IMG/VR virus record: IMGVR_UViG_3300021519_000067
Location: 1-25,292 of that record
DNA length: 25,292 nucleotides
Reading direction: 5' to 3' (one strand)
Origin: a virus
Positions within the stretch are counted from its first letter, which is position 1. Each line of letters opens with the position of its first letter. Position numbers and translations under genes: made by a program. Below the pieces are notes generated by a model, which saw only the letters and a program-made list of their open reading frames with translations, had not been told where the DNA came from and did not search any database. Shown here in pieces: positions 4,879-24,625 of the stretch.

Positions 4879-6503
4879 TAGCCGAGCGTCGTGCCGTCGC
4901 CGGGCTGCACGTGCGCCAGCACGAGGCCCATCTGGTAGTCGCCGCCGATGCAGTTACTGGCGAAGAGGAAGCGCAGTTCGCGCCTCTGCGTCTTCAGGAA
5001 CACGACCTGCTCGCCCGGCACGGAGGCGCTCTCGCTGATCGTCATGATGATGCCGTCGACTTCCGGCGCGCGGGCATTGGCGCGGCCGCGCACTTGCACG
5101 GTCATCGGCCCGGCCTGCACGAAGTCCGGCTCAAGCATGAGCACCTGCATCGCCCGGTTCTGGCCGCTCTGGGCCGGGAGCGAGATGTCTGCCGTCTCGA
5201 AGTAGCTCTCGATCGGGTTGATGTTGATGCCGTCGATCTCGTCCGTTCCGACCTCGTGGACCCAGAAGCGGTACTGCAGGGTGCCGCTCTCCTCCGTCAC
5301 GCGGTACGATATGCCGTCCTCCGTGACGCGGTACAGGCCGCCGCTCTCAGTCAAGCGCTCCTCGTCCACGACGCTGTACGGCAGGCTGCCGGCCATGAGG
5401 GGGCGGCGGAAGACGGCCGGGAACAGGCCCGCACTGCGCCCCTCGTTAGGCAGCTCCGTATCGTACCAGATGTTGTCGCGCACATTGAGGATGAGGGCAT
5501 GGTTCGGCTCGGTGCTGTCGCCGGAGGGGTAGCACCACCAGATTTCGCCGAAGCGCGGCACCTTCATGGCGAACATCTTCTGCCGGTAGGCCATGTTGAT
5601 GTTGTCGAAGAAGAAGTTGGAATTGAGGTTGTTCTCGATCTCGCGGACGACGCCGTTGAACATCAGGAAGCGATCAGTCCCGACCCAGTAGAAGATGCCG
5701 TCATACTCAATGACCGAGGCGGCGGACATGATGGAGCTTTGCGAGCTGATCGTGTCGAATTGGAAGATCTGCGTGCTGCCGACGTACGAGGCGCGGATGA
5801 GGGCGTCGGCCGTCCAGAAGAGGCCCGAGGGGCTATTGCCGGGGCCACCGCGCAGCGGCATGCCGCGCACGACCTTCTGCCCGCTGATGTACGCATTGCC
5901 GGCGCCCGAGCCGGTAAAGTCGTTCGGGGTGTTCGGCACGGACCACGCCACGTAGCCGTCATTGCCGAAGGCGAAGGTGTATGGCGGGAGGGTGACGACG
6001 CCGCCAGTGCAGTTGAAGTTGGCCGGGACCGTCGTGACCTGCGTCAGGGCCGTCGTGGCGAGGAGGTCGCCCGTGAAGAGGGCGCCCCCCTCGCTGTTGC
6101 AGACGCACAGCAGATTGGGCGCCACTTGCGCCACGATCTGGCTCCCGTCGGTGGTGTCGTAGGCCACGTCGAACTGCCACAGATTGCTGTCATTCGCGGT
6201 GAAGCCGGCGCCCGGCGTGCGGTCGATGATGCTGCTCGTGTTGAACGTGCCGCTGATGAAGAAGCGCTCGATCAGGTTGGCCGATCCGGCGTGGATGTAG
6301 GTGAGATTGTCCTGCGTGTACTCATGCAGCGTGCGCACGCAGCCATTCAGGTACTTGTTGATCGAGCGGTAGCCACCGATCTTGCGCGGCAGGCCGCGCT
6401 GAAAGCGGCACCACTGCCCGTCGACGTATGCGTCGCCCTCAAACTTGGTGCCGTCGCGCTTGATGCCGGGCTGGGATGCGATGCGGATGATGCTCTCAGG
6501 CAT
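4878..6503 (-). CDS. tail nozzle or DNA-stabilisation-like protein (541 aa)
   Basis: This protein is probably the tail hub or nozzle that closes the channel, like P22 gp10 in role. It opens IIRIASQPGIKRDGTKFEGD, then YVDGQWCRFQRGLPRKIGGY, a signature I recall from short-tailed phage nozzle proteins. The rest is beta-rich with a propeller pattern: FAFGNDGYVAWSVPNTP, then VIEYDGIFYWVGTDRFLMFN, and FGEIWWCYPSGDSTEPN. These repeated Trp/Tyr strand pairs, with NIWYDTELPN, fit a beta-propeller. Start and stop overlap both neighbours (TGATG, TAATG). The family is usually annotated only as structural. I am sure it is a virion protein, less sure of its exact part. Confidence 0.8.
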   Translation of the reverse strand: MPESIIRIASQPGIKRDGTKFEGDAYVDGQWCRFQRGLPRKIGGYRSINKYLNGCVRTLHEYTQDNLTYIHAGSANLIERFFISGTFNTSSIIDRTPGAGFTANDSNLWQFDVAYDTTDGSQIVAQVAPNLLCVCNSEGGALFTGDLLATTALTQVTTVPANFNCTGGVVTLPPYTFAFGNDGYVAWSVPNTPNDFTGSGAGNAYISGQKVVRGMPLRGGPGNSPSGLFWTADALIRASYVGSTQIFQFDTISSQSSIMSAASVIEYDGIFYWVGTDRFLMFNGVVREIENNLNSNFFFDNINMAYRQKMFAMKVPRFGEIWWCYPSGDSTEPNHALILNVRDNIWYDTELPNEGRSAGLFPAVFRRPLMAGSLPYSVVDEERLTESGGLYRVTEDGISYRVTEESGTLQYRFWVHEVGTDEIDGININPIESYFETADISLPAQSGQNRAMQVLMLEPDFVQAGPMTVQVRGRANARAPEVDGIIMTISESASVPGEQVVFLKTQRRELRFLFASNCIGGDYQMGLVLAHVQPGDGTTLG

Positions 6504-7330
6504 CAGGCCGTCCTCGTGAAGGTGCCGGAGGACGTGAAGGTGTGGATGGTATTTCCCCCACTGGTGGTGATCGTGCCGCCCGTCGCGGTGATCGCGCCGG
6601 TTGCATATCTGATAATGACCCGACCGTTCTGGCCGGCAGCACCCGCGCCGGTGACGCCACTACCCGGCCCACCGCCCTGACCCCCGCTGCCCGGGCTGCC
6701 GTACCCGGTGCCGTTGGTCCCGGGCGTGCCGTTGAAAGCACCGCCTCTGCCGCCCGCGCCGTAGGTGACGCTCGCGCCGCTGATGCTGTTGGCGGTACCC
6801 GCACCGCCATTGCCGCCGTTGATGGTCGCATTGGTCGCCGCCGAGCCCGCGCCGCCACCACCGCCCGCGCCGTAGTTCTGGGTGGCACTGCCGGTGCCGC
6901 CACTATTGCCCACCCCGGTGACCGCGCCGGGCTGCGAAACACCCACCACATTCTGGTTCGACCCACCGCCGCCACTGCTGCCGCCGTCGCCGCCCTGTCG
7001 ATTGGCGAGCACCAGATCGTAATATCCGCCCCGACCGCCGCCGACCGCCGTAGCGCCGTTGAAGCTGCTGTTGCCGCCGTCCGTGGCCGCACCACCCGAA
7101 CCGGCGACATCGGGGCCTGCCGTGCCGCCCGTGCCCACCACCACGGCATAGGCAGCCACTGCGACCGTCCGACCGAGGAACGGCAGCACATCGCCGCCAC
7201 CGCCGCCGCCGCCGATATACCCGGCCCCACCGCCACCGCCCGCGACGACCAGATAGTCGATGACGCCGGTACTGCTCCCAAAGCCATAGGCGCGCAGGCT
7301 CGCGGCCCCGCAGGAGGCGATCGTCGGCAT
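6503..7330 (-). CDS. Gly-rich tip adhesin (275 aa)
   Basis: I take ATG 7330 as the start, because it overlaps the fibre stop as TGATG; a longer frame would run into the fibre gene. The 275 residues open PTIASCGAASLRAYGFGSST, then VIDYLVVAGGGGGAGYIGGG, and then a long Gly-rich domain. It ends AAGQNGRVIIRYATG, followed by GGNTIHTFTSSGTFT. The VIDYLVVAGGGGG opening and NGRVIIRY ending mark the Gly-rich phage adhesin family, related in style to the S16 tip adhesin. As the gene after the fibre, it probably sits on the fibre tip and chooses the receptor. The 12876-15041 protein carries a second copy of this type of domain. Confidence 0.82.
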   Translation of the reverse strand: MPTIASCGAASLRAYGFGSSTGVIDYLVVAGGGGGAGYIGGGGGGGDVLPFLGRTVAVAAYAVVVGTGGTAGPDVAGSGGAATDGGNSSFNGATAVGGGRGGYYDLVLANRQGGDGGSSGGGGSNQNVVGVSQPGAVTGVGNSGGTGSATQNYGAGGGGGAGSAATNATINGGNGGAGTANSISGASVTYGAGGRGGAFNGTPGTNGTGYGSPGSGGQGGGPGSGVTGAGAAGQNGRVIIRYATGAITATGGTITTSGGNTIHTFTSSGTFTRTA

Positions 7331-8991
7331 CAGATGAAGGCCGTCCGGGTGGCGAGGATCGTATAGGTCGACGCCGCCGTTTTGGTGATCGAGAAGGTGT
7401 AGGCGTCGATAGCGGACGTGCCGCCCACCGTCGGCGCGCCACCCTGCCACTTGATGGTGACGCCCACGGCCGTGCCGTCGACTTGGATGCTGGAGGCGTA
7501 ATAGCCGGTCGCGCCCTGCGTCGACTTGAAGGCGCAGGAGATCGTCTGCCCGGTCGAAAGCATCGTATTCATCGGCGTCCCCGCCGAGGCGCGGAAATTG
7601 AGCGTCCAGTTGGCGCTCGATGCCGTCGTGTACCAAAGGACGCTCTGGGTCGTAAGGTCGTAGTTGATCGTGCCGGTCGCAGGCGACGCGACGATGGTCT
7701 CGGTCTCGACGATGTTGGGCGTCACCACTGCCGGCGTGCTCGTGCCGCCACCCAGCGTCTGCGTCGCCGTGAACGTATTGGCCGTGCTGGGCGTCACGAC
7801 GGCGCCCCACACCGGGGCGACGCCGACGCCTTGCGACAGCAGGGCGTTGCCGCTCGCGACCGCAGCCCGGCGGCTGAGCGTCCCCACGGCGGAGGCGTAG
7901 ATCAGGTCGCCGACGGCGTAGGTCGTGAGGCCCGTGCCTCCCTGCGATGCGCTGATCGGCACCGCAAGGGCCGCCGTGGCGGCGTTCACGACCTCCGCGC
8001 CGTTGCAGTAGTAGATGCCCCGCGCGCCCTGCGTGACGGGCAGGGGCGTGCCGCCGCTGGTCTGCAAGTAGAAGGTGTAGGCGCCTGTCGTGGCGTTATC
8101 GACCCAGTATTGCTGCACCGTCGACGGCACGACGATGTACTGATCGCTGCCCAGCGCGCCCACGAAGTTGTACGCGATGCGGTTCAGCTCGGCGCCGGAG
8201 AGCGTGTACGTGCCGCCAGTGACTGCAATGGACGTGTAGTCGAAGGCGAAGACGGCCTCCTGACCGAGGCCCAGCGTGAACCACGTCAGCCCGTCCGTCA
8301 TGAGGTTGGCGCTGTCGCCGGGACGCAGGACGAGGGTCGTGTCGCCGTCGATCGTCTCGCTGCCTGCCGGGTCGATGGTGAAGTCGCCCCCGCCGCTGTT
8401 GCGGACGGCGAGGAAGAAGTTGTTCCCGAGGGTCGCCGCGCCGAGGAGGTTAAGCGTGCCGGTGCCCGTGCCGGACCACACGAGGGCGCTGGCGCGGTCG
8501 GTCACCAGCAGCGTGCGCGGGCTGACCGTGAAGGTCGTGACCGGCAGGGACTGCGAGAGCGTGCTGCTCGTGACGGTCAGGCCGTAGCCTGCAAGGGCCG
8601 AGGCCTGCACGGTCGCCGTCGAGGCGCCGTAGCGGAAGACGCGCCACGTGCCTGCCGTGGTGCTGACGCTCGCCAGATACACCTGCCACTGCTCACCGAC
8701 GGCCACGGTGGCGATCGTATTGCCGTCGTAGTCCTTGACGGTGAAGCTGCTGCTGCTGCCCGAGAGGTTGTTGAAGAGCATCGTCTGCCCCGCGCCGGTC
8801 AGCGTCGCGTCCGGCAGGAGGACGCTGTACGCGCCCGATGCCGTCACGTCGATGATACGCGCCGCAGGGTTGGTGGGGTCGTTGCTCTCAAGGGGCCATT
8901 GCAGCGTTGCGTTCGCGCTGAGTGTGAGCGCCAGATAGGAGACGTCCGACGGGTATATCGTCGTGCCACCAAAAACCTGCGTGTAGCTCAT
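7330..8991 (-). CDS. tail fibre protein (553 aa)
   Basis: This protein is a probable receptor-binding or fibre-stalk protein. The N-terminal 100 residues begin YTQVFGGTTIYPSDVSYLAL and carry TLQWPLESNDPTNPAARIID, a common phage fibre attachment domain. Two further repeats of this kind (STLSQSLPVTTFTVSPRTLL; GNNFFLAVRNSGGGDFTIDP) follow. The segment ISASQGGTGLTTYAVGDLIY (about 350-370) is a known fibre motif that occurs before the distal part. The last 150 residues are Thr/Ser-rich strands. No C-terminal chaperone domain is visible. Its stop is TGATG with the next start, so it is coupled to the Gly-rich adhesin. Confidence 0.85.
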   Translation of the reverse strand: MSYTQVFGGTTIYPSDVSYLALTLSANATLQWPLESNDPTNPAARIIDVTASGAYSVLLPDATLTGAGQTMLFNNLSGSSSSFTVKDYDGNTIATVAVGEQWQVYLASVSTTAGTWRVFRYGASTATVQASALAGYGLTVTSSTLSQSLPVTTFTVSPRTLLVTDRASALVWSGTGTGTLNLLGAATLGNNFFLAVRNSGGGDFTIDPAGSETIDGDTTLVLRPGDSANLMTDGLTWFTLGLGQEAVFAFDYTSIAVTGGTYTLSGAELNRIAYNFVGALGSDQYIVVPSTVQQYWVDNATTGAYTFYLQTSGGTPLPVTQGARGIYYCNGAEVVNAATAALAVPISASQGGTGLTTYAVGDLIYASAVGTLSRRAAVASGNALLSQGVGVAPVWGAVVTPSTANTFTATQTLGGGTSTPAVVTPNIVETETIVASPATGTINYDLTTQSVLWYTTASSANWTLNFRASAGTPMNTMLSTGQTISCAFKSTQGATGYYASSIQVDGTAVGVTIKWQGGAPTVGGTSAIDAYTFSITKTAASTYTILATRTAFI

Positions 8992-11792: not shown

Positions 11793-12779
11793 TTACCTCG
11801 TGTAGGCCATGATGTTGGGGGCGATGTTGAGGGGCGAGTTGTCGCTCTCCTCCTGCTGCGCGATGTACAGTGCCTGCGCCGCCTTGGCGTCAAGGGGCGC
11901 CATGAGGCCCGCGTCGACCTCTATATACTCCATGGCCATCTTGGCCGCCAGCAGGGACACGATGGCCTCGTACCAGCGCTGCGGCACCTCGACTTCCTGC
12001 GTCATGGTGCCCACGTCCATGATCTGGCGCGCGGCCCAGACGACGATCTGCATGACGGTGGCGGCATCGTTCGGCACGGGCCACATGTTCATGACTGGCG
12101 ACAGCGTCTGGCGGTCGAGCCAGTACTGCAGGGGCCTGTTGCTCTGGAAGACCTTGTTCGGCAGGTTGACGTAGTCGTCCCTGTTCAGACGCGAGAGGGG
12201 TATCTCTGTCGGCGTGTTGCCGAGGTAGATCTGGCTGAAGCCGAGGGTGCCGCTGGTGGCCCGCAGGCGGAAGAAGTCGGCCGCGATGCTGCTGTCAAGG
12301 TCGTACCACGTCCACTCCCCGGCGGCGGCGGTGGGCACCTCGGCTTGGATGACTGTCCACGTCACACCGTCGTCCGAGCGCGAGAACTCGACAGGCACGG
12401 CCGTCTGCGACCACAGGACGCCAGCAGTGCTGACGGCCGTCGGGCTGTCGAACTCGACTACGCGCTCCGTCGACGTGTCGGTGTTCGTGCCGGACACTTC
12501 TTGCAGTGAGCGCAGGTTGGAGTTGAGGATGTCGACGGTGCCCAGCAGCGTCGTGATGTAGCCCACGCCCTCATACAGAGGGTAGATCGTCTTCTGGATG
12601 CACCACAGCGGCGTGCCTTGGTTGGCCAGATCCGACAGCAGCAGAAACAGCAGATCGTTGGCGATGTCCACGTGCTCGGACGTCAGCGACTGCGCAGGGA
12701 GCCTACACCGCCGGGCTGCGTGCTCGATCACGCGGCGCGTGTCGAACGTCGTCTGCGATACCGTGCCGGAGTAGGCCAT
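11793..12779 (-). CDS. head-tail connector or neck protein (328 aa)
   Basis: This is a probable connector between portal and tail. Residues 1-70 are helical and begin SQTTFDTRRVIEHAARRCRL, then LTSEHVDIANDLLFLLLSDLANQG, an adaptor-like helix bundle. Residues about 75-200 form a beta domain, with an RSDDGVTWTVIQAE strand pair like a carbohydrate-binding or discoidin fold. The C-terminal third has YWLDRQTLSPVMNMWPVPND and a helix QRWYEAIVSLLAAKMAMEYI. That last region with MWPVPN is typical, as I recall, of podovirus neck proteins. The discoidin-like insertion between the two halves is unusual. It ends with a TAA 6 bases before the next start. Confidence 0.7.
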   Translation of the reverse strand: MAYSGTVSQTTFDTRRVIEHAARRCRLPAQSLTSEHVDIANDLLFLLLSDLANQGTPLWCIQKTIYPLYEGVGYITTLLGTVDILNSNLRSLQEVSGTNTDTSTERVVEFDSPTAVSTAGVLWSQTAVPVEFSRSDDGVTWTVIQAEVPTAAAGEWTWYDLDSSIAADFFRLRATSGTLGFSQIYLGNTPTEIPLSRLNRDDYVNLPNKVFQSNRPLQYWLDRQTLSPVMNMWPVPNDAATVMQIVVWAARQIMDVGTMTQEVEVPQRWYEAIVSLLAAKMAMEYIEVDAGLMAPLDAKAAQALYIAQQEESDNSPLNIAPNIMAYTR

Positions 12780-12875: not shown

Positions 12876-15041
12876 CTAGCAGCCCGGCTGCATGGGTGTC
12901 CGAGGCAGTTGGGTGATGACCATGGCCTGCCGAGGCAGTTCGGTGATGACCATGTCCTGCCGAGGCAGTTCGGTCACTAGCATGGCCTGCCGAGGCAGTT
13001 CGGTGATGACCATGTCCTGCCGGGGCATCTCGGCAACAATCATGTCCTGTCGGGCGCACCACGGGTGGTACGGGATCGGCACGGGGCTGCCGCCGGTAAT
13101 CGTCGGTGTGTAGAAGACCGTGACGTTGTCAAGGCGATCCGGCAGCAGGCTGTACGTGGCTGAGATCGTCGGTGTGTAGAACGTGTTCGTATTGCTGAAG
13201 AGCGCAGGCAGCAGGCTGTACGTGGCTGAGATCGTCGGCGTGTAGAACGTGTTCGTGTTGCTGAAGAGGTCCGGCAGCAGAGTGACCGCGCCCGGCGTTA
13301 TCGTCGGTGTGTAGAATGTGTTGGCGTTGCTGAAGAGGTCCGGCAGCAGGGCGTATGTGGCCGAGATCGTCGGTGTGTAGAACGTGTTCGTATTGCTGAA
13401 GAGCGCAGGCAGCAGGCTGTACGTGGCTGAGATCGTCGGTGTGTAGAACGTGTTCGTGTTGCTGAAGAGCGCAGGCAGCAGGGCGTATGTGGCCGAGATC
13501 GTCGGTGTGTAGAACGTGTTCGTATTGCTGAAGAGGTCCGGCAGCAGAGTGACCGCGCCCGCAGTTATCGTCGGTGTGTAGAACGTGTTCGTATTGCTGA
13601 AGAGGTTCGGCAGCAGGCTGTACGTGGCCGAGATCGTCGGTGTGTAAAAGGTGTTCGTGTTGCTGAAGAGGGCAGGCAGCAGCGCGACTGCCCCTGTGGT
13701 TATCGTCGGCGTGTAGAACGTGTTCGTATTGCTGAAGAGCGCAGGCAGCAGAGTGACCGCGCCCGCAGTTATCGTCGGTGTGTAGAACGTGTTGGCGTTG
13801 CTGAAGAGGTCCGGCAGCAGCGGGGTGGTGTTCGCAATATACGCGGTATAGAACGTGTTCGTGTTGCTGAAGAGCGAAGGCAACAGAGTGACCGCGCCCG
13901 GCGTTATCGTCGGTGTGTAGAACGTGTTGGTGTTGCTGAAGAGCGCAGGCAGCAGAGTTACCGCGCCCGGCGTTATCGTCGGCGTGTAGAACGTGTTGGT
14001 GTTGCTGAAGAGCGCAGGCAGCAGCGTTACCACAACAGGCGTATAAGTGAGGATGATGATGCCCGCCCGGCCAGCACCGCCGTTGCCATTTACAAAACCC
14101 GTACCCGCGCCTGCGCCACCGCCGCCACCGCCGCCTCCGTAGAGACCCCCAGCACCACCAGCGGAGCCGTCGTTACCAGTCGGGCCTGCTGGGTCGTAAT
14201 AATCATTTTTGCCGCCGCCCCCGCCGCCCCCGGAACCTGCGGTGGCGCTGTCGCTGGTCTGCGTCCAGAAAGCGCCGGGGCCGCCCGCACCACCAACACC
14301 GCCAGCACCACCGGTATCGCGACCGCCACCGCCGCCTCCACCACCAACCGTGCCAGCAGTGCCTCCGTTAGTGCCGCCAGCCCCCGAACCCACACCGGCT
14401 GCATTGTTTCCGCCCGCGCCGCCAGTCGTCGCAGTGCCTACTGATCCTACGGCACCTACCGTACCGCTCGCGCCTGTGCCTGCACCGCCGCCTCCGGCAC
14501 CACCCGTTTGGCTGGCAACGACACCGCCTGCGCCCCCGGCGCCGCGATTTCCGCCCGCACCGCCGCCGCCGCTGCCGCCGCCGCTGCCGCCGATGCCAGC
14601 GCCCCCGCTGCCGCCCGAGTTTTTAGTAGAGCCGACGCCGCTGGCCGACGCGCCGCCGACGCCAGCGGTGTTTGCAGTGCCAGAACTGCCTGTGCCGCCT
14701 TTTGCGAGAGCGCCTGCGGCTGCTGAAGCCGGTGCGCTATTAACTGACACGTTAAACCAGCTATCCCCGCCAGCACCGCCATTCGTTGCCGTGGTCGTTG
14801 CTCCGGTGCCACCGGCTCCAATCGAGGTGTAAACAGTCGCGGACGCAGCTAGGGAGGCGTCAGCGTCGGTGATCTTGGAGTATGCGCCAGCACCGCCGCC
14901 CCCAGAGGAGTTAGCAGCGTTATTCGCACGTCGCCCTGCACCACCCCCGGCACCGATGACCTCAATCGACCACGGTGCACCCCAATCAGAGGGTAGCACA
15001 TAGGACGTTCCTGTCGTCCGAAAGATGGTTTTAGTCGCCAC
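12876..15041 (-). CDS. large repeat adhesin: Gly-rich domain plus 14 tandem repeats
   Basis: This 721-residue protein is probably a tail appendage for host contact. It starts with GTG at 15041 and has GAGGTGAG upstream. Residues about 28-335 are a Gly/Ala/Asn-rich domain with many GGAGG and GGGGG runs, ending GGAGRAGIIILTYTP. This style is like the Gly-rich tip adhesins of phages such as S16, where strands pack as polyglycine helices. Residues 340-653 are 14 tandem repeats of 22 or 23 residues with the core LLPALFSNTNTFYTPTI. Two linker types alternate, GAVT-type and SATYS-type. Residues 664-713 are five decapeptides of the RQDMVITELP type. There is no signal peptide and no enzyme motif. A similar Gly-rich protein is at 6503-7330. 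Confidence 0.78.
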   Translation of the reverse strand: MATKTIFRTTGTSYVLPSDWGAPWSIEVIGAGGGAGRRANNAANSSGGGGAGAYSKITDADASLAASATVYTSIGAGGTGATTTATNGGAGGDSWFNVSVNSAPASAAAGALAKGGTGSSGTANTAGVGGASASGVGSTKNSGGSGGAGIGGSGGGSGGGGAGGNRGAGGAGGVVASQTGGAGGGGAGTGASGTVGAVGSVGTATTGGAGGNNAAGVGSGAGGTNGGTAGTVGGGGGGGGRDTGGAGGVGGAGGPGAFWTQTSDSATAGSGGGGGGGKNDYYDPAGPTGNDGSAGGAGGLYGGGGGGGGAGAGTGFVNGNGGAGRAGIIILTYTPVVVTLLPALFSNTNTFYTPTITPGAVTLLPALFSNTNTFYTPTITPGAVTLLPSLFSNTNTFYTAYIANTTPLLPDLFSNANTFYTPTITAGAVTLLPALFSNTNTFYTPTITTGAVALLPALFSNTNTFYTPTISATYSLLPNLFSNTNTFYTPTITAGAVTLLPDLFSNTNTFYTPTISATYALLPALFSNTNTFYTPTISATYSLLPALFSNTNTFYTPTISATYALLPDLFSNANTFYTPTITPGAVTLLPDLFSNTNTFYTPTISATYSLLPALFSNTNTFYTPTISATYSLLPDRLDNVTVFYTPTITGGSPVPIPYHPWCARQDMIVAEMPRQDMVITELPRQAMLVTELPRQDMVITELPRQAMVITQLPRTPMQPGC
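12903..13052 (-). repeat. five 30-bp repeats at the 3' end of the adhesin gene
   Basis: These are five in-frame copies of a 30-base unit coding decapeptides RQDMIVAEMP, RQDMVITELP, RQAMLVTELP, RQDMVITELP and RQAMVITQLP. The units alternate between QDM and QAM forms, suggesting duplication of a two-unit block. On the plus strand the core is CCGAGGCAGTTCGGTGATGA. The repeat is directly followed by RTPMQPGC and the stop. Confidence 0.9.
13085..14024 (-). repeat. 14 tandem 66/69-bp repeats inside the adhesin gene
   Basis: These are in-frame DNA repeats coding the LLPALFSNTNTFYTPTI units. Counted from the Leu-Leu-Pro codons, the unit lengths are 69,69,66,69,69,66,69,66,66,66,69,66,66, plus the last degenerate unit (LLPDRLDN...). 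The DNA core reads ATCGTCGGTGTGTAGAACGT on the plus strand in many copies. Near-identity at the DNA level between copies suggests recent expansion or exchange. No spacers are present, so this is not a CRISPR array. Confidence 0.92.
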
Positions 15042-15241
15042 TACTCTGGGCTCACCTCAAGCGGCGCGATAAAAGCGACGCCATCCCATGCCCAGCCAAT
15101 GTCACAGCCCTGCTCGTTCATGACCTCGACAAGCTGGCAGTCGATCTGCGGCGGGTCACTGGGCGCAGCCATGATGATGTTAATAACGAGGCCGTCCGAA
15201 AGCTGGCAGACGGCGCAACGGGTCGGGATAAACTCGTCCAC
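15041..15241 (-). CDS. small fibre-associated protein (66 aa), GTG start
   Basis: This 66-residue protein starts with GTG at 15241 and has GAGGTAGG upstream. It contains a CAVC pair near the start, then a strand pattern LVINIIMAAPSDPPQIDCQL, and an end CDIGWAWDGVAFIAP. The DIGWxWDGxxF ending is common, as I recall, in short proteins encoded just before fibre or adhesin genes. Its TAG stop shares one base with the GTG start of the large adhesin gene, so the two are translationally coupled. It may help fold or attach that adhesin, which is inference from position. Confidence 0.68.
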   Translation of the reverse strand: MDEFIPTRCAVCQLSDGLVINIIMAAPSDPPQIDCQLVEVMNEQGCDIGWAWDGVAFIAPLEVSPE

Positions 15242-15266: not shown

Positions 15267-15668
15267 CTACAGAGCGAAGATGCCCGAGGCATTCCAAGTT
15301 ATCGTGATGTCGCCGCCGTTTGGCGTCACGGGCAGGTTAGTCACGCTGGTGTTGATGAAGGCCACCAGAGGCGATGTGGCGCTCGAGCCCGTGTCGATGT
15401 ACAGCACGAGCGACACGGCCTGCGACCCGGTAACGGCTGTGAACGTCACGTCCGCGCCGTCGAAGACGCCGAGCGTAAAGGTCTTGCTGCCGATCGTCTG
15501 CGGGGTGCCCACGGCAGACGCGCTGACGCTGCTGTAGAACTGGTCCGAGGACGAGTAGGTGTAGCCCGAGGTGACCAGCGCGACCTTCACGGTTCCGCTC
15601 GACAGGTTATTGTTAGTCGTGAACTGAAGCAGGGCTTCCTTCCACTTTGGGTATAGGGCGTTGGCCAT
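15267..15668 (-). CDS. small virion protein of a common phage family (133 aa)
   Basis: This 133-residue protein begins MANALYPKWKEALLQF, a start typical of a small phage protein that often lies near tail-fibre genes. It continues with KVALVTSGYTYSSSDQFYSSV, then SKTFTLGVFDGADVTFTAVTG, and a final VTPNGGDITITWNASGIFAL. The pattern of strands separated by polar turns points to a compact beta-sandwich. Proteins like this are usually annotated as hypothetical or structural. A TAGGAGTTTAGACG ribosome region precedes the ATG. It is likely part of the particle, but nothing proves where. Confidence 0.72.
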   Translation of the reverse strand: MANALYPKWKEALLQFTTNNNLSSGTVKVALVTSGYTYSSSDQFYSSVSASAVGTPQTIGSKTFTLGVFDGADVTFTAVTGSQAVSLVLYIDTGSSATSPLVAFINTSVTNLPVTPNGGDITITWNASGIFAL

Positions 15669-20998: not shown

Positions 20999-21427
20999 CT
21001 ACAGGAAGGCCTTCATCGCGAGCGGATCGCCCGTGATTTCGCCCAGCAGGTCGAGATCGTTAAACAGTACAAAGATGACTTCGTCGCCGCCCTCCATGAG
21101 GACAGACCAGCGGTCGCCGCCGTACTTCGGCGCGCGCACGTGGCTGCCGACACCGGCCCAAGTCCCCTCCGGCCACGGCTCCATGGTGTTGCGGTTGTGG
21201 TACGCCAGCGGGCCCACGGCCCGGACCTTGGCGACTTGCGTGTTCCACATCTCCGTGTCTCGGCTTTCGCCCGACAGGATGATGCCGCCCTTCGTCTTGG
21301 TCTTGGCTCGCCGGATTTGCAGCAGCACGCGGCTGCCGAACGGCCGGACGCCCGGGTCAATTTCAGGGAAGGCGTCTGCCTCCCCGTCGTACGCAAATTG
21401 CACCTTGTTCATTTCATAGGCCTGCAT
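20999..21427 (-). CDS. GroES-like (cpn10 fold) phage co-chaperonin
   Basis: This protein is probably a co-chaperonin-like cap that works with host GroEL to fold a head protein, as T4 gp31 does. Residues 29-70 follow the GroES core: PFGSRVLLQIRR, then KTKGGIILSG (44-53), then a conserved-type QVAKVRAVGPLAY. GroES has GGIVLTG at the mobile loop, so the hydrophobic tripeptide that grips GroEL is present here as IIL (49-51). The C-terminal strand VIFVLFNDLDLLGEI resembles the GroES ending LLLRESDILAVVE. I start at ATG 21427 (142 residues) because GGAAGGGAG lies just upstream and the longer frame would overlap the previous gene. Its place between portal and scaffold fits a role in capsid folding. 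The fold call is by eye. Confidence 0.78.
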   Translation of the reverse strand: MQAYEMNKVQFAYDGEADAFPEIDPGVRPFGSRVLLQIRRAKTKTKGGIILSGESRDTEMWNTQVAKVRAVGPLAYHNRNTMEPWPEGTWAGVGSHVRAPKYGGDRWSVLMEGGDEVIFVLFNDLDLLGEITGDPLAMKAFL

Positions 21428-21446
21428 ATTCGCTCCCTTCCGCAGG

Positions 21447-21638
21447 TTAGAGTGTAAAGTCGCGCCGTTCCTTCTCGTCCACAAGGTCGAGCAGGACGCG
21501 CTTGGCCATCTCGAGGCCGGCGTACATTCCCACGGCTTTGCCGTAGTTAAAGTCCCCCAGTGCGGGCTGCTGCATCACCTCGTGCGCGAAGCGTGTCTGC
21601 TCCTCGCTGAGGCGATGTAGCATGCTCTCCAGTATCAT
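21447..21638 (-). CDS. small conserved-type phage protein (63 aa), helical
   Basis: This 63-residue protein is mostly helical, with a central FNYGKAVGMYAGLEMAKRVLLDLVDE stretch and a charged end ERRDFTL. Small proteins with a YGxxxGxxxGLxxAxxxLLxLLxE pattern commonly sit between portal and scaffold genes in podoviruses; that statement is from general memory of such genomes. No function is known to me. It begins inside the stop of the 46-residue gene (ATGA) and ends 19 bases before the co-chaperonin-like gene. Translation is therefore likely coupled to its neighbours. Confidence 0.72.
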   Translation of the reverse strand: MILESMLHRLSEEQTRFAHEVMQQPALGDFNYGKAVGMYAGLEMAKRVLLDLVDEKERRDFTL

Positions 21639-21979: not shown

Positions 21980-24625
21980 TCACGGGTTGGGGTTGATGCC
22001 GGTGCCGGTGCTCACGGAAAAGCGCTCGCCGCTGTCGATCTCGGCCGCAGCCAGCTCCATGGCCGTGCTGTTGTCGCTCGTGTTCATGGCGATGCGCGCC
22101 TGCAACTCGGCCGCCCTGCGGGCGTCCTCGGCCTGCTGCCGCTGCTGCTCGATGGTCAGGCGCGTCTGCATCTCGGCCGCATCCTGCTGCGCCGACTGCT
22201 GCAACCTGAATGCCTCAAGTTGCAGGCGCTGCGCGTCAAGCTGCTGCCCCCGCTGCATGTCCTGCGCCCGGAGCTGCATGTCCTGCGCATTGAGCTGAAG
22301 CTCCTGCGCATCGCTCTGCTGCCGCTGCTGCATGTCCTGCGCATTGAGCTGCGCCTTCTGCGCCTCCTGCTGCGCCTTCATCTGCAACTGCTGCGTCTGG
22401 AGCTGCACCTTCTGCCCCTCAAGGGCAAGGAGCGGATCCTGCTGCGGCTGCGGCTGGAACTGCTGCATGAGGGCCTGCGCCTGCTGCACGATGGCGGGCA
22501 TGCTGGCGAATAGCTGGGCGCTCTGGGCCACGGCCGCCCCGCCCGCCTCGACCAGCAGGCGGTCAAGCTCGCGGTGCGTGTCGGCATCCGGGCCGAGTTT
22601 CTTCATGAGGGCCCCGACGCCCTCCCCGAGGGCCTCGCTGGCGATCTGCACGGCCGCGCTGGCGTACCACAGGACCATGTGATCCCGCAGGTGGTTGAGG
22701 ATGACGGGGATGAACGTCGGCGCAATGAGGGGGCTGGAGCCGAGCATCGGGCTGCTCAGGAACTCCACGTGCGTCTCAAGGTGCGCTAGGTGGTCCTGCT
22801 CAGGGAAGGCCATGATGGGGCGCCCGAGGGAGGCCGCCACGTTCTCATTGATGGCGTTCTGCTCCTTGGGCTCCACGGGCGGGTTGAGCAACTCCTTAGA
22901 GTTGGGCACCTTGAGCGTCTCAAGCAGGCGCTCCTCCACCTTGCGCTGGTTGTAGAGCTGCGGCATGGCCGAGGCGCGCTGCACCACGGCCTGCACCTGC
23001 GCATAGCGCTGCGCCTCGCTGAAGATGTTCGGGTCACTGACGGGCACGACGTCCAGCGGCCCCTCGAAGTCCTTGCGCGTCGCCAGCTCCTCGCCGGCCT
23101 CGCGCTCAAGGCGCTCGTCATCGAGATACAGGCCGTTGAGGCGGTGCAGGACGCGCAGCATGCGCGCCATGGCGTCATGCAGGCGGACGTGGATGGCCGA
23201 GTAGACGACCATGCCCTGCTCGATCTTGGCCAGCGTGGTGCCGACCGGCGCGTTGGGGTTGCCGTCGGCCACGTCATCGAGGGCCGTGCGGACGACGCCC
23301 TTGCCGGCGTCCACGAGGAAGCCCAGCAGGCTGAAGAGCACCTGCGATGGCGGGTTGTAGGGCATCGGCATGAACAGCTTGCGCACGTCGTCGACGTTGA
23401 TGCCGCCCTCGATCTGCACGATCTCGCCCGGCACGGGGGCCTCGCTCTGGCCGCCGATCTTGGCGCCCTTGAGCTTCAGGCCGCTGGGCGTGTTCTGGAT
23501 GTGAGCGCTGTCAAGCAGGGCACGCAGGGCGCCAGTGGCGGCGCCCGACAGGCCGCCAATCATGTGCGGCAGGCCGATCGGGTAGGCCCCGCGCCATGGG
23601 ATGAAGGGCCACTCCACGAACCACGTCAGGGCCTCTCGCGTGTCGTCCTCTTGGTCCCAGTTGCGGTAGATGGCGAGCACCTTGCCCGTCGCCTTGTCGA
23701 TGCTGACGATGTACGGCGAGGCCTCCTCGTCGTCGCCGATCTCGGCCGTCATGAGGACCTCGTAGATGGTCCGCAGGCCGTCCTCATTGTACGACGTGGC
23801 GTCCCGCCCTTCGATCTTGTCGTTCGCCCGGGCGGCGCCGGACATCTCCGGCTCCAAGCCCACGGGGGCGAGGTCCACGTCGCGGTACATGCCGCTCTTG
23901 ATGCGCTGCTCGTACTCCAGTTGCGTGACGTACTGCACGTGCGTCTTGCGCTCCGCGCTGTAGAAGTTGGTGGCCGCGAACGGCAGCAGCATGTCGTCGA
24001 TCGGCACGAACAGGAAGGTCGGGCGGTTGCGCCTCTCCTCCCAGCCGATCTTCATGTACTGCACGCCGCCGAGCGGCACCTGCGTCATGAGCTGCTCCAG
24101 CTCGGCCCGCACTTCCGGGCACTGGACGGTCATCTGCCAGTTCAGGAGCGTGGTCTTGCGCTTCGCCTTGGCCATCTTCTCTTCCGTGGCCTTGCCGGGC
24201 ACGTAGTCCTTGGCTGGGCCCATCGGCGGGAAGATCTCCTTCATGGCCCGCGAGGCGAAGTCGATGCAGGCCTCCGTCATGAGGGGATGCACGACCTTCG
24301 AGGCGCCCGCGAACTGGGCGCCGCCGGGCGCCTCGTCACCAAGGCCGGTGCGCTTGAGGCCCTCCTCGTACTGCTCGTCGCGCTTCTTGCGCGCCTCCTT
24401 GTCCTTGCCGATCAGGTCCGTCAGGCGTGACGACAGGGCGCTCAGGTCGCCCTCGGGGATGTCCTCCGCTAGGTTGGCGTAAAACTCGTCGTCCTCCGGG
24501 CGCGGACCTTCGTCCTCCATGCGCACGATGGCGCCGCCGTCGGGCGTGTCCTCAACGTCCTCATCCTCGTCCTCGTCAGGGAGGGGCATGAACTCGCCTT
24601 CGTCCATCTCGTCGTCGTCGACCAT
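21980..24625 (-). CDS. portal protein with long Gln-rich C-terminal tail
   Basis: This is probably the dodecameric portal at the head vertex through which DNA enters and leaves. It has 881 residues, long for a portal. The N-terminus is very acidic (about residues 1-60). The middle has the mixed alpha/beta pattern expected of a podovirus portal, including a VEWPFIPWRGAYPIGLPHMI stretch and a helical DVADGNPNAPVGTTLAKIEQG region. From about residue 705 to 845 the chain becomes a Gln/Ala/Met-rich helix with repeats such as LNAQDMQ and LRAQDMQ, which suggests a long coiled coil like the portal barrel of other short-tailed phages. It sits directly downstream of the terminase. A CAGGAC-type ribosome site lies before the ATG. 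The call rests on position, size and sequence style. Confidence 0.87.
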   Translation of the reverse strand: MVDDDEMDEGEFMPLPDEDEDEDVEDTPDGGAIVRMEDEGPRPEDDEFYANLAEDIPEGDLSALSSRLTDLIGKDKEARKKRDEQYEEGLKRTGLGDEAPGGAQFAGASKVVHPLMTEACIDFASRAMKEIFPPMGPAKDYVPGKATEEKMAKAKRKTTLLNWQMTVQCPEVRAELEQLMTQVPLGGVQYMKIGWEERRNRPTFLFVPIDDMLLPFAATNFYSAERKTHVQYVTQLEYEQRIKSGMYRDVDLAPVGLEPEMSGAARANDKIEGRDATSYNEDGLRTIYEVLMTAEIGDDEEASPYIVSIDKATGKVLAIYRNWDQEDDTREALTWFVEWPFIPWRGAYPIGLPHMIGGLSGAATGALRALLDSAHIQNTPSGLKLKGAKIGGQSEAPVPGEIVQIEGGINVDDVRKLFMPMPYNPPSQVLFSLLGFLVDAGKGVVRTALDDVADGNPNAPVGTTLAKIEQGMVVYSAIHVRLHDAMARMLRVLHRLNGLYLDDERLEREAGEELATRKDFEGPLDVVPVSDPNIFSEAQRYAQVQAVVQRASAMPQLYNQRKVEERLLETLKVPNSKELLNPPVEPKEQNAINENVAASLGRPIMAFPEQDHLAHLETHVEFLSSPMLGSSPLIAPTFIPVILNHLRDHMVLWYASAAVQIASEALGEGVGALMKKLGPDADTHRELDRLLVEAGGAAVAQSAQLFASMPAIVQQAQALMQQFQPQPQQDPLLALEGQKVQLQTQQLQMKAQQEAQKAQLNAQDMQQRQQSDAQELQLNAQDMQLRAQDMQRGQQLDAQRLQLEAFRLQQSAQQDAAEMQTRLTIEQQRQQAEDARRAAELQARIAMNTSDNSTAMELAAAEIDSGERFSVSTGTGINPNP

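Follow-up and report, generated by a model that had tools for sequence, protein, structure and literature searches.

A widespread 22/23-residue repeat family in phage genomes and its genetic linkage to a homologue of the mycobacteriophage tail wing arm

Introduction

The tail wing of mycobacteriophage Bxb1 is an appendage with a solved structure (PDB 9D93), in which gp30 is the base, gp31 the arm and gp33 the brush; these part names are taken from the PDB molecule names and from citing papers. PMC13243192 likens gp33, a bundle of polyproline-II type, to the tail adhesin of phage S16. Another phage protein, gp61 of Dylan (Corndog cluster), belongs to phrog_8501, a family named "minor tail protein"; the baseplate structure of Corndog (PMC13252515) lists no component matching Dylan gp60 or gp61. 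The BACON tandem repeats of crAssphage likewise form an array in a phage tail-associated protein and evolved through sequential duplications (PMC6949934), but BACON is a named carbohydrate-binding-associated domain, whereas the unit discussed here consists of 22 or 23 residues without a known fold.

The protein described here is encoded in a stretch of viral DNA of 25,292 nucleotides (IMG/VR record IMGVR_UViG_3300021519_000067), which is termed the window; related loci carry L numbers. The window and Bxb1 share the gene order arm, small ORF, Gly-rich protein, and in both the arm homologue (phrog_644) lies near a gene for a Gly-rich domain, which is of the Gly_rich_2 type in Bxb1 and Gly_rich_2-like, with a score below the cut-off, in the window. 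In contrast to the window protein, Bxb1 gp33 does not possess the 22/23-residue repeats, and the window genome is podovirus-like in appearance (SU10-type adaptor), unlike that of Bxb1. We consider it reasonably probable that the 721-aa protein of the window contributes the adhesin and the rod to a receptor-binding appendage that is modular in build and related to the tail wing of mycobacteriophages.

Organization of the repeat gene

The 721-aa ORF begins with a GTG codon that overlaps the stop of the upstream 66-aa ORF, and the features of the locus are summarized in Table 1. The first-pass annotation had described a Gly-rich head, 14 repeats and five decapeptides, and this three-part build is reproduced here, with the decapeptides at exactly the same residues. 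The Pro-rich joint that precedes them is common to L039, L053, L062, L085 and others. The number of decapeptides (RxxMxVxELP) also varies among relatives, as seen in the C-terminal tails of L039, L062, L174, L085 and others, and further relatives carry alternative tails with IRSFTERRRF ends or Trp-rich repeats.

Table 1. Features of the repeat gene and its neighbours in the window.
Feature	Position	Strand	Basis
133-aa arm protein (phrog_644), homologous to the "tail wing arm" gp31 of Bxb1 in PDB 9D93	15267..15668	minus	profile/PDB sequence match
Small ORF of 66 aa (phrog_14370), located between the arm gene and the repeat gene	15041..15241	minus	homologues in L004, L063, L066
721-aa Gly-rich adhesin/repeat-rod protein	12876..15041	minus	ORF; GTG start
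N-terminal Gly-rich domain, residues 1-335, Gly_rich_2-like	14037..15041	minus	profile score
14 repeats of 22/23 residues, residues 340-653	13083..14024	minus	unit lengths, Tandem Repeats Finder, DNA identity of copies
Pro-rich joint VPIPYHPWCA, residues 654-663	13053..13082	minus	
Five decapeptides RQxMxVxELP, residues 664-713, then RTPMQPGC	12903..13052	minus	
328-aa downstream neighbour, phrog_12985, weak SU10_adaptor match	11793..12779	minus	

From residue 340 onward the unit lengths are 23, 23, 22, 23, 23, 22, 23, 22, 22, 22, 23, 22 and 22, followed by a divergent last unit of the Arg-Asp type that begins LLPDRLDNVTVFYTPTI. The linker order A A variant A A B A B B B A B B last agrees with the first-pass annotation. 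For positions 13165-14031, Tandem Repeats Finder returns a score of 1041 at a period of 135 bp with 6.4 copies and one of 920 at 69 bp, and the 30-bp array at 12900-13027 scores 200; all three values are far above the cut-off of 50. The near identity of the DNA copies noted earlier is confirmed: the 51-base cores of most copy pairs are 84-100% identical, those of copies 10 and 13 fully so, and the exceptions are unit 3, which is divergent, and the final unit. Ile is encoded by ATA ahead of GAVT-type linkers and by ATC ahead of SATY-type linkers; since the codon tracks the linker type, types A and B are two DNA sub-lineages of the unit.

The repeat family and its second branch

The window array belongs to a family, defined here, of tandem LxPxLFxNxNxFYxxTV cores joined by linkers of 3, 5, 6 or 8 residues. 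A search of other proteomes with the unit had been proposed in the first-pass annotation, and it uncovers a large family: the unit profile search of IMG/VR gave 283 pattern matches, and tblastn confirmed 173 relatives, 80 of which were kept. Two among 84,980 prokaryote species genomes contain the repeat, prophages carry it too, and the one annotated phage recovered by the profile is the cyanophage Pam2 of Pseudanabaena. The product of Pam2_68 has the same LFTNTNSFY-type repeat in 12 detected copies, and the arm homologue Pam2_64 lies upstream as in the window; the Pam2 protein differs in its N and C termini and in its spacings, which are nearly all 23. No family covering the repeat was found in Pfam, NCBIfam or the PDB, and a plasmid collection gave no match. 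A full-text literature search for the motif NTNTFY returned no paper, and the literature on tail-fibre repeats holds precedent for other repeats only. The earlier statement that no structure is described for the repeat agrees with the sequence search of the PDB. The gene is of an ordinary kind, coding for a probable adhesin or fibre component of a phage. The repeat from which it is built is widespread and undescribed, and its family is large and uncurated as judged by these searches.

Profile searches connect the array with phrog_8501, which is matched by the window (E 6.8e-6), Pam2_68 (3.7e-9) and Dylan gp61 (8e-78), and also by L040. Dylan gp61 shares with the window protein the 23-residue period and the adjacency to the arm gene. 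Its mean BLOSUM62 score is 1.39 at lag 23 and at most 0.02 at all other lags from 15 to 31, and the units can be aligned as xxPxxIxSTxxVxxPTVxxGAVx (phrog_8501) and LxPxLFTNTNTFYxxTVxxGAVT. Unlike the window protein, it has 133 aa, few and diverged units, another consensus, and neither the Gly-rich head nor the decapeptides; an HMM of the 22-residue unit did not score it above shuffled sequences. Rhizobial prophage arrays in L253 and L254, whose genomes are of the same family as the Mesorhizobium host of L087, retain the 23-residue period behind diverged arms and match phrog_8501 at 2e-20 and 4e-23, respectively. L254 also matches Pam2 (E 1e-14), and the L253 unit ASTNTFYASTI, situated among IxS-type units, provides a bridge between the branches. 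On these comparisons phrog_8501 is a second branch of the repeat, likewise located behind an arm gene in Corndog-cluster phages and rhizobial prophages.

Linker classes and coupled residues

Two linker types had been recognized in the window. Both are present there, and they represent only two of four classes of fixed length in the family as a whole. The distance from one core to the next was taken 745 times in 92 distinct arrays. The values 20 (16), 22 (271), 23 (377) and 25 (63) dominate and 21 (2), 24 (7) and 26 (2) are rare; the values 11 (4) and 1 (3) come from motif matches that overlap or are stray. The corresponding linkers are RYT (3 residues), SATYS or ASNT (5), xPGAVT (6) and TQxGGAQT (8). 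The 22 and 23 types are mixed in 68 of the 92 arrays, and like types adjoin each other 293 times against 264 ± 9 after shuffling; this slight excess, reached in 1 of 1000 shuffles, is expected from tandem duplication.

Core positions 5 and 7 co-vary. Among 666 distinct cores, a Leu-type residue occurs with Thr/Ser in 326 and Arg with Asp in 152, the two mixed pairs occur in 9 and 5 (14 in all), and the remainder mostly have other residues at position 7; related cores are not independent, and these counts are therefore not to be read as probabilities. The excess mutual information of this pair, 0.524 nats, is by far the largest, the next pair reaching 0.154. A strand in which the two residues, two positions from each other, point to one face would give such a coupling and a disordered linker would not, so that the switch argues for a folded unit.

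Variation in array length

It had been proposed that near-identical copies would permit length change by recombination and that the shaft might vary fast, with copy number in relatives as the measure. Whole-unit differences are indeed observed in some metagenomic phages. L022 and L023, with 9 and 8 repeats, are exactly 23 aa apart with flanks 99.8% and 100% identical; L174 and L182, with 9 and 7 units, are 48 aa apart with flanks 99.2% and 93.1% identical. The architecture of the window protein recurs in L181, where it has about 10 units, and in L227, where it has 6; for the window phage itself no near-identical relative was available. The term "fast-varying" is not supported in general, as many equally close pairs have equal repeat numbers and the phrog_8501 array is of constant length in 38 mycobacteriophage records. 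Gain and loss of units happens in homogeneous arrays, and metagenomic assembly, which can collapse repeats, may contribute to the length differences.

Predicted fold

A coil of 22-23 residues is of the usual size for parallel beta-helices. AlphaFold2 models both the homogeneous window array (pLDDT 65.8) and the strongly diverged L086 array (pLDDT 60.0) as a beta-solenoid. The L086 model resembles the beta-helices of the HK620, Sf6 and P22 tailspikes with Z of 16-19 over about 300 residues. Foldseek gave no match at E 0.001 or better for the window model. In a VIA comparison this model aligns with a variety of beta-helices at Z values of up to 13, which any repeat protein would be expected to reach, and these alignments were set aside. 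AlphaFold2 is known to favour beta-solenoids for tandem repeats, even for meaningless ones (PMC11795689). With their low pLDDT, the models offer a low-confidence lead that the rod is probably a parallel beta-helix in which each coil corresponds to a single repeat.

A flexible, unordered linker whose repeats are kept by slippage alone could also produce near-identical DNA copies, whole-unit length changes and low pLDDT. We judge this highly improbable in view of the strong positional conservation across the distinct cores, the coupled Arg-Asp/Leu-Thr switch, the near absence of spacings of 21 and 24, and the 23-residue period kept in highly diverged branches. In another reading, the repeats constitute a beta-helical binding surface, a ladder as in tailspike adhesins, whose unit number sets avidity, instead of a mere spacer. 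The likeness of the diverged-array model to tailspikes is consistent with this, and Asn 8 (present in every sampled core, yet fixed by the search pattern), Phe 12 (97% of the distinct cores) and Tyr 13 (86%) could form surface ladders. However, near-identical units occur in unrelated phage backgrounds with variable heads and tails, which suggests that they act as a scaffold under conservation. Neither a catalytic nor a ligand site was identified, and the confidence in the fold is low. We regard the binding surface as unlikely and prefer the rod.

The arm gene and its linkage to the repeat gene

The first-pass annotation missed that the repeat gene belongs to a conserved cassette with a tail-wing-arm homologue, as gene order and homology indicate. 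The window arm protein matches "Tail wing arm, gp31" of Bxb1 in PDB 9D93 with E 3e-6. Dylan gp60, which is likewise phrog_644, matches the same chain with E 2e-24 and is 43% identical to the window arm protein. By eye, Bxb1 gp32 and the 66-aa ORF of the window are not similar. A phrog_12985-type gene comes after the repeat gene in many relatives.

Of the loci found with the repeat alone, 54 extend more than 3 kb upstream, and 46 of these carry the arm gene ahead of the repeat gene and in the same orientation; in none of the 56 loci that carry an arm is it downstream or on the opposite strand. In the reverse direction, a repeat gene follows in 52 of 57 arm-queried loci with at least 2.5 kb, and L243, one of the five without a detected repeat gene, has degenerate repeats. 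Many of these contigs are from related phages, and the counts are not independent. The arm and repeat genes may be as close as 4 bp or as far as 5.2 kb apart, the long gaps being filled by varied large proteins. In L193 (4971-7960) and L200, the intervening proteins are composed of units such as FANPATLPTGxGxGVAFSPSGNAIAVAHxTSPFVxAYPWSGSGFGTK, possibly forming a beta-propeller; they have no Pfam or PHROG match.

The pairing recurs with the capsid background of the window itself, in Pam2, in rhizobial prophages, in Corndog-cluster mycobacteriophages (arm gp60, then repeat gp61), beside P22-type portal, scaffold and coat genes (L087, L188, L192), and in Brujita-type mycobacteriophages, the arm of Brujita being a putative one. 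Arm genes without detectable repeats are present in L190, L206, Bxb1, Cosmo and F116-like phages. The cassette appears to move as a block, and the genetic tie between repeat gene and wing arm, as read from gene order, is new and strong.

The tight linkage and strong joint conservation of arm and repeat core would also be expected if the array were an extended scaffold that carries several arms like beads on a string. Each repeat would then bind one arm, the number of repeats would determine that of the arms, and discrete linker classes would hold the docking sites in register. Arms occur, however, in the absence of repeat genes, as in Bxb1, and direct contact between arm and repeat is a prediction; such a scaffold seems quite improbable. 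A joined alignment of arm and repeat protein for structure prediction was poor and was dropped.

In L087, L188 and L192 the cassette is situated between the P22-type portal gene and the scaffold and coat genes, and in the window just after the capsid genes. This location would suit a head-attached or neck fibre, i.e., a whisker or decoration fibre, in place of a tail appendage. Against such a fibre, the arm homologue is named as a tail wing part in PDB 9D93, and in mycobacteriophages and Pam2 its gene is grouped with those for minor tail proteins, so that we consider this fibre an unlikely alternative to the wing-related appendage. The frequent placement among head and portal genes nevertheless speaks against the wing reading, in which the assignment to the tail is putative.

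The Gly-rich head

The profile Gly_rich_2 (PF21722) scores 45.4 bits with Bxb1 gp33, 27.3 with L181 and 18.3 with the window protein, the cut-off of 24.3 bits lying between the latter two. The window Gly-rich part is 50-53% identical to those of L181, L227 and L221. The earlier view of an adhesin-type, multi-part virion protein is supported; the PF21722 score of its head falls below the cut-off in the window copy taken alone and above it in the approximately 50% identical L181. BLASTP of the window domain against gp33, in low-complexity sequence, gave no signal, and direct profile comparison gave a weak one, also in low-complexity sequence. The gp33-type N-terminal anchor (phrog_20812), present in gp33 and Dylan gp64, has no match in the window protein, which begins directly with the Gly-rich domain and for this reason is not classed as a gp33 member. 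No D-Ala-D-Ala carboxypeptidase wing base was matched among the scanned ORFs of this 25-kb fragment.

A polyglycine-II bundle is expected for the window domain, as for the gp38-type polyglycine adhesin of phage S16 and Gly_rich_2 domains; in the window protein it is joined to an extended repeat rod. Dylan encodes its repeat protein (gp61) apart from the brush-like gp64, whereas head and repeats are on one chain in the window, L181, L221 and L227. Fusion here and separation elsewhere would support a joint function.

Proposed organization of the appendage

In the wing-related appendage that we favour, the arm protein, encoded two genes upstream, would be the structural partner of the repeat protein. 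Weighing against this reading are the missing matches to a wing base and a gp33-type anchor in the window, the Corndog baseplate list without counterparts of gp60 and gp61, the low pLDDT of both models, the Foldseek result for the window model, and the arm genes found without repeats. The Gly-rich N-terminal domain would serve as a "brush"-like adhesin head, probably a polyglycine-II bundle, and the decapeptides as a C-terminal tail. The 14 repeats would stack, one to each coil, into a stiff rod that is most likely a beta-helical shaft; of the turns in a coil, only that formed by the linker would tolerate four fixed lengths. Head and tail would be exchanged between phages while arm and rod are retained, and unequal recombination between near-identical repeats may add or remove whole units.

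A broader generalization is put forward tentatively, as possible and somewhat doubtful: the rod may be a transferable phage fibre part, beta-helical with a 22/23-residue repeat per coil, which has four interchangeable turn lengths, docks to the wing arm, sets its length by repeat number and has its head and tail swapped between unrelated phages.

The linkage connects a repeat family that is uncurated but widely distributed with the tail wing, whose structure has been solved, and phrog_644 and phrog_8501 gain a probable role. The clear sequence rules and whole-unit differences make the effect of fibre length on adsorption testable in laboratory phages.

Other features of the window

A second Gly-rich coding stretch is located at 6503-7810 (PF21722, E 1e-14), in another frame, and shares an overlap with the end of the ORF at 7330-8991. 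Up to residue 178, the 6503-7810 ORF resembles an out-of-frame reading, and the two ORFs may derive from a single gene interrupted by a frameshift, either programmed or due to a sequence error. A GroES-like co-chaperonin (PF00166, E 2e-7) is encoded at 20999-21484, close to the portal gene at 21980-24625, which itself contains short tandem repeats of 21 and 54 bp at 22229-22420, towards its 3' end.
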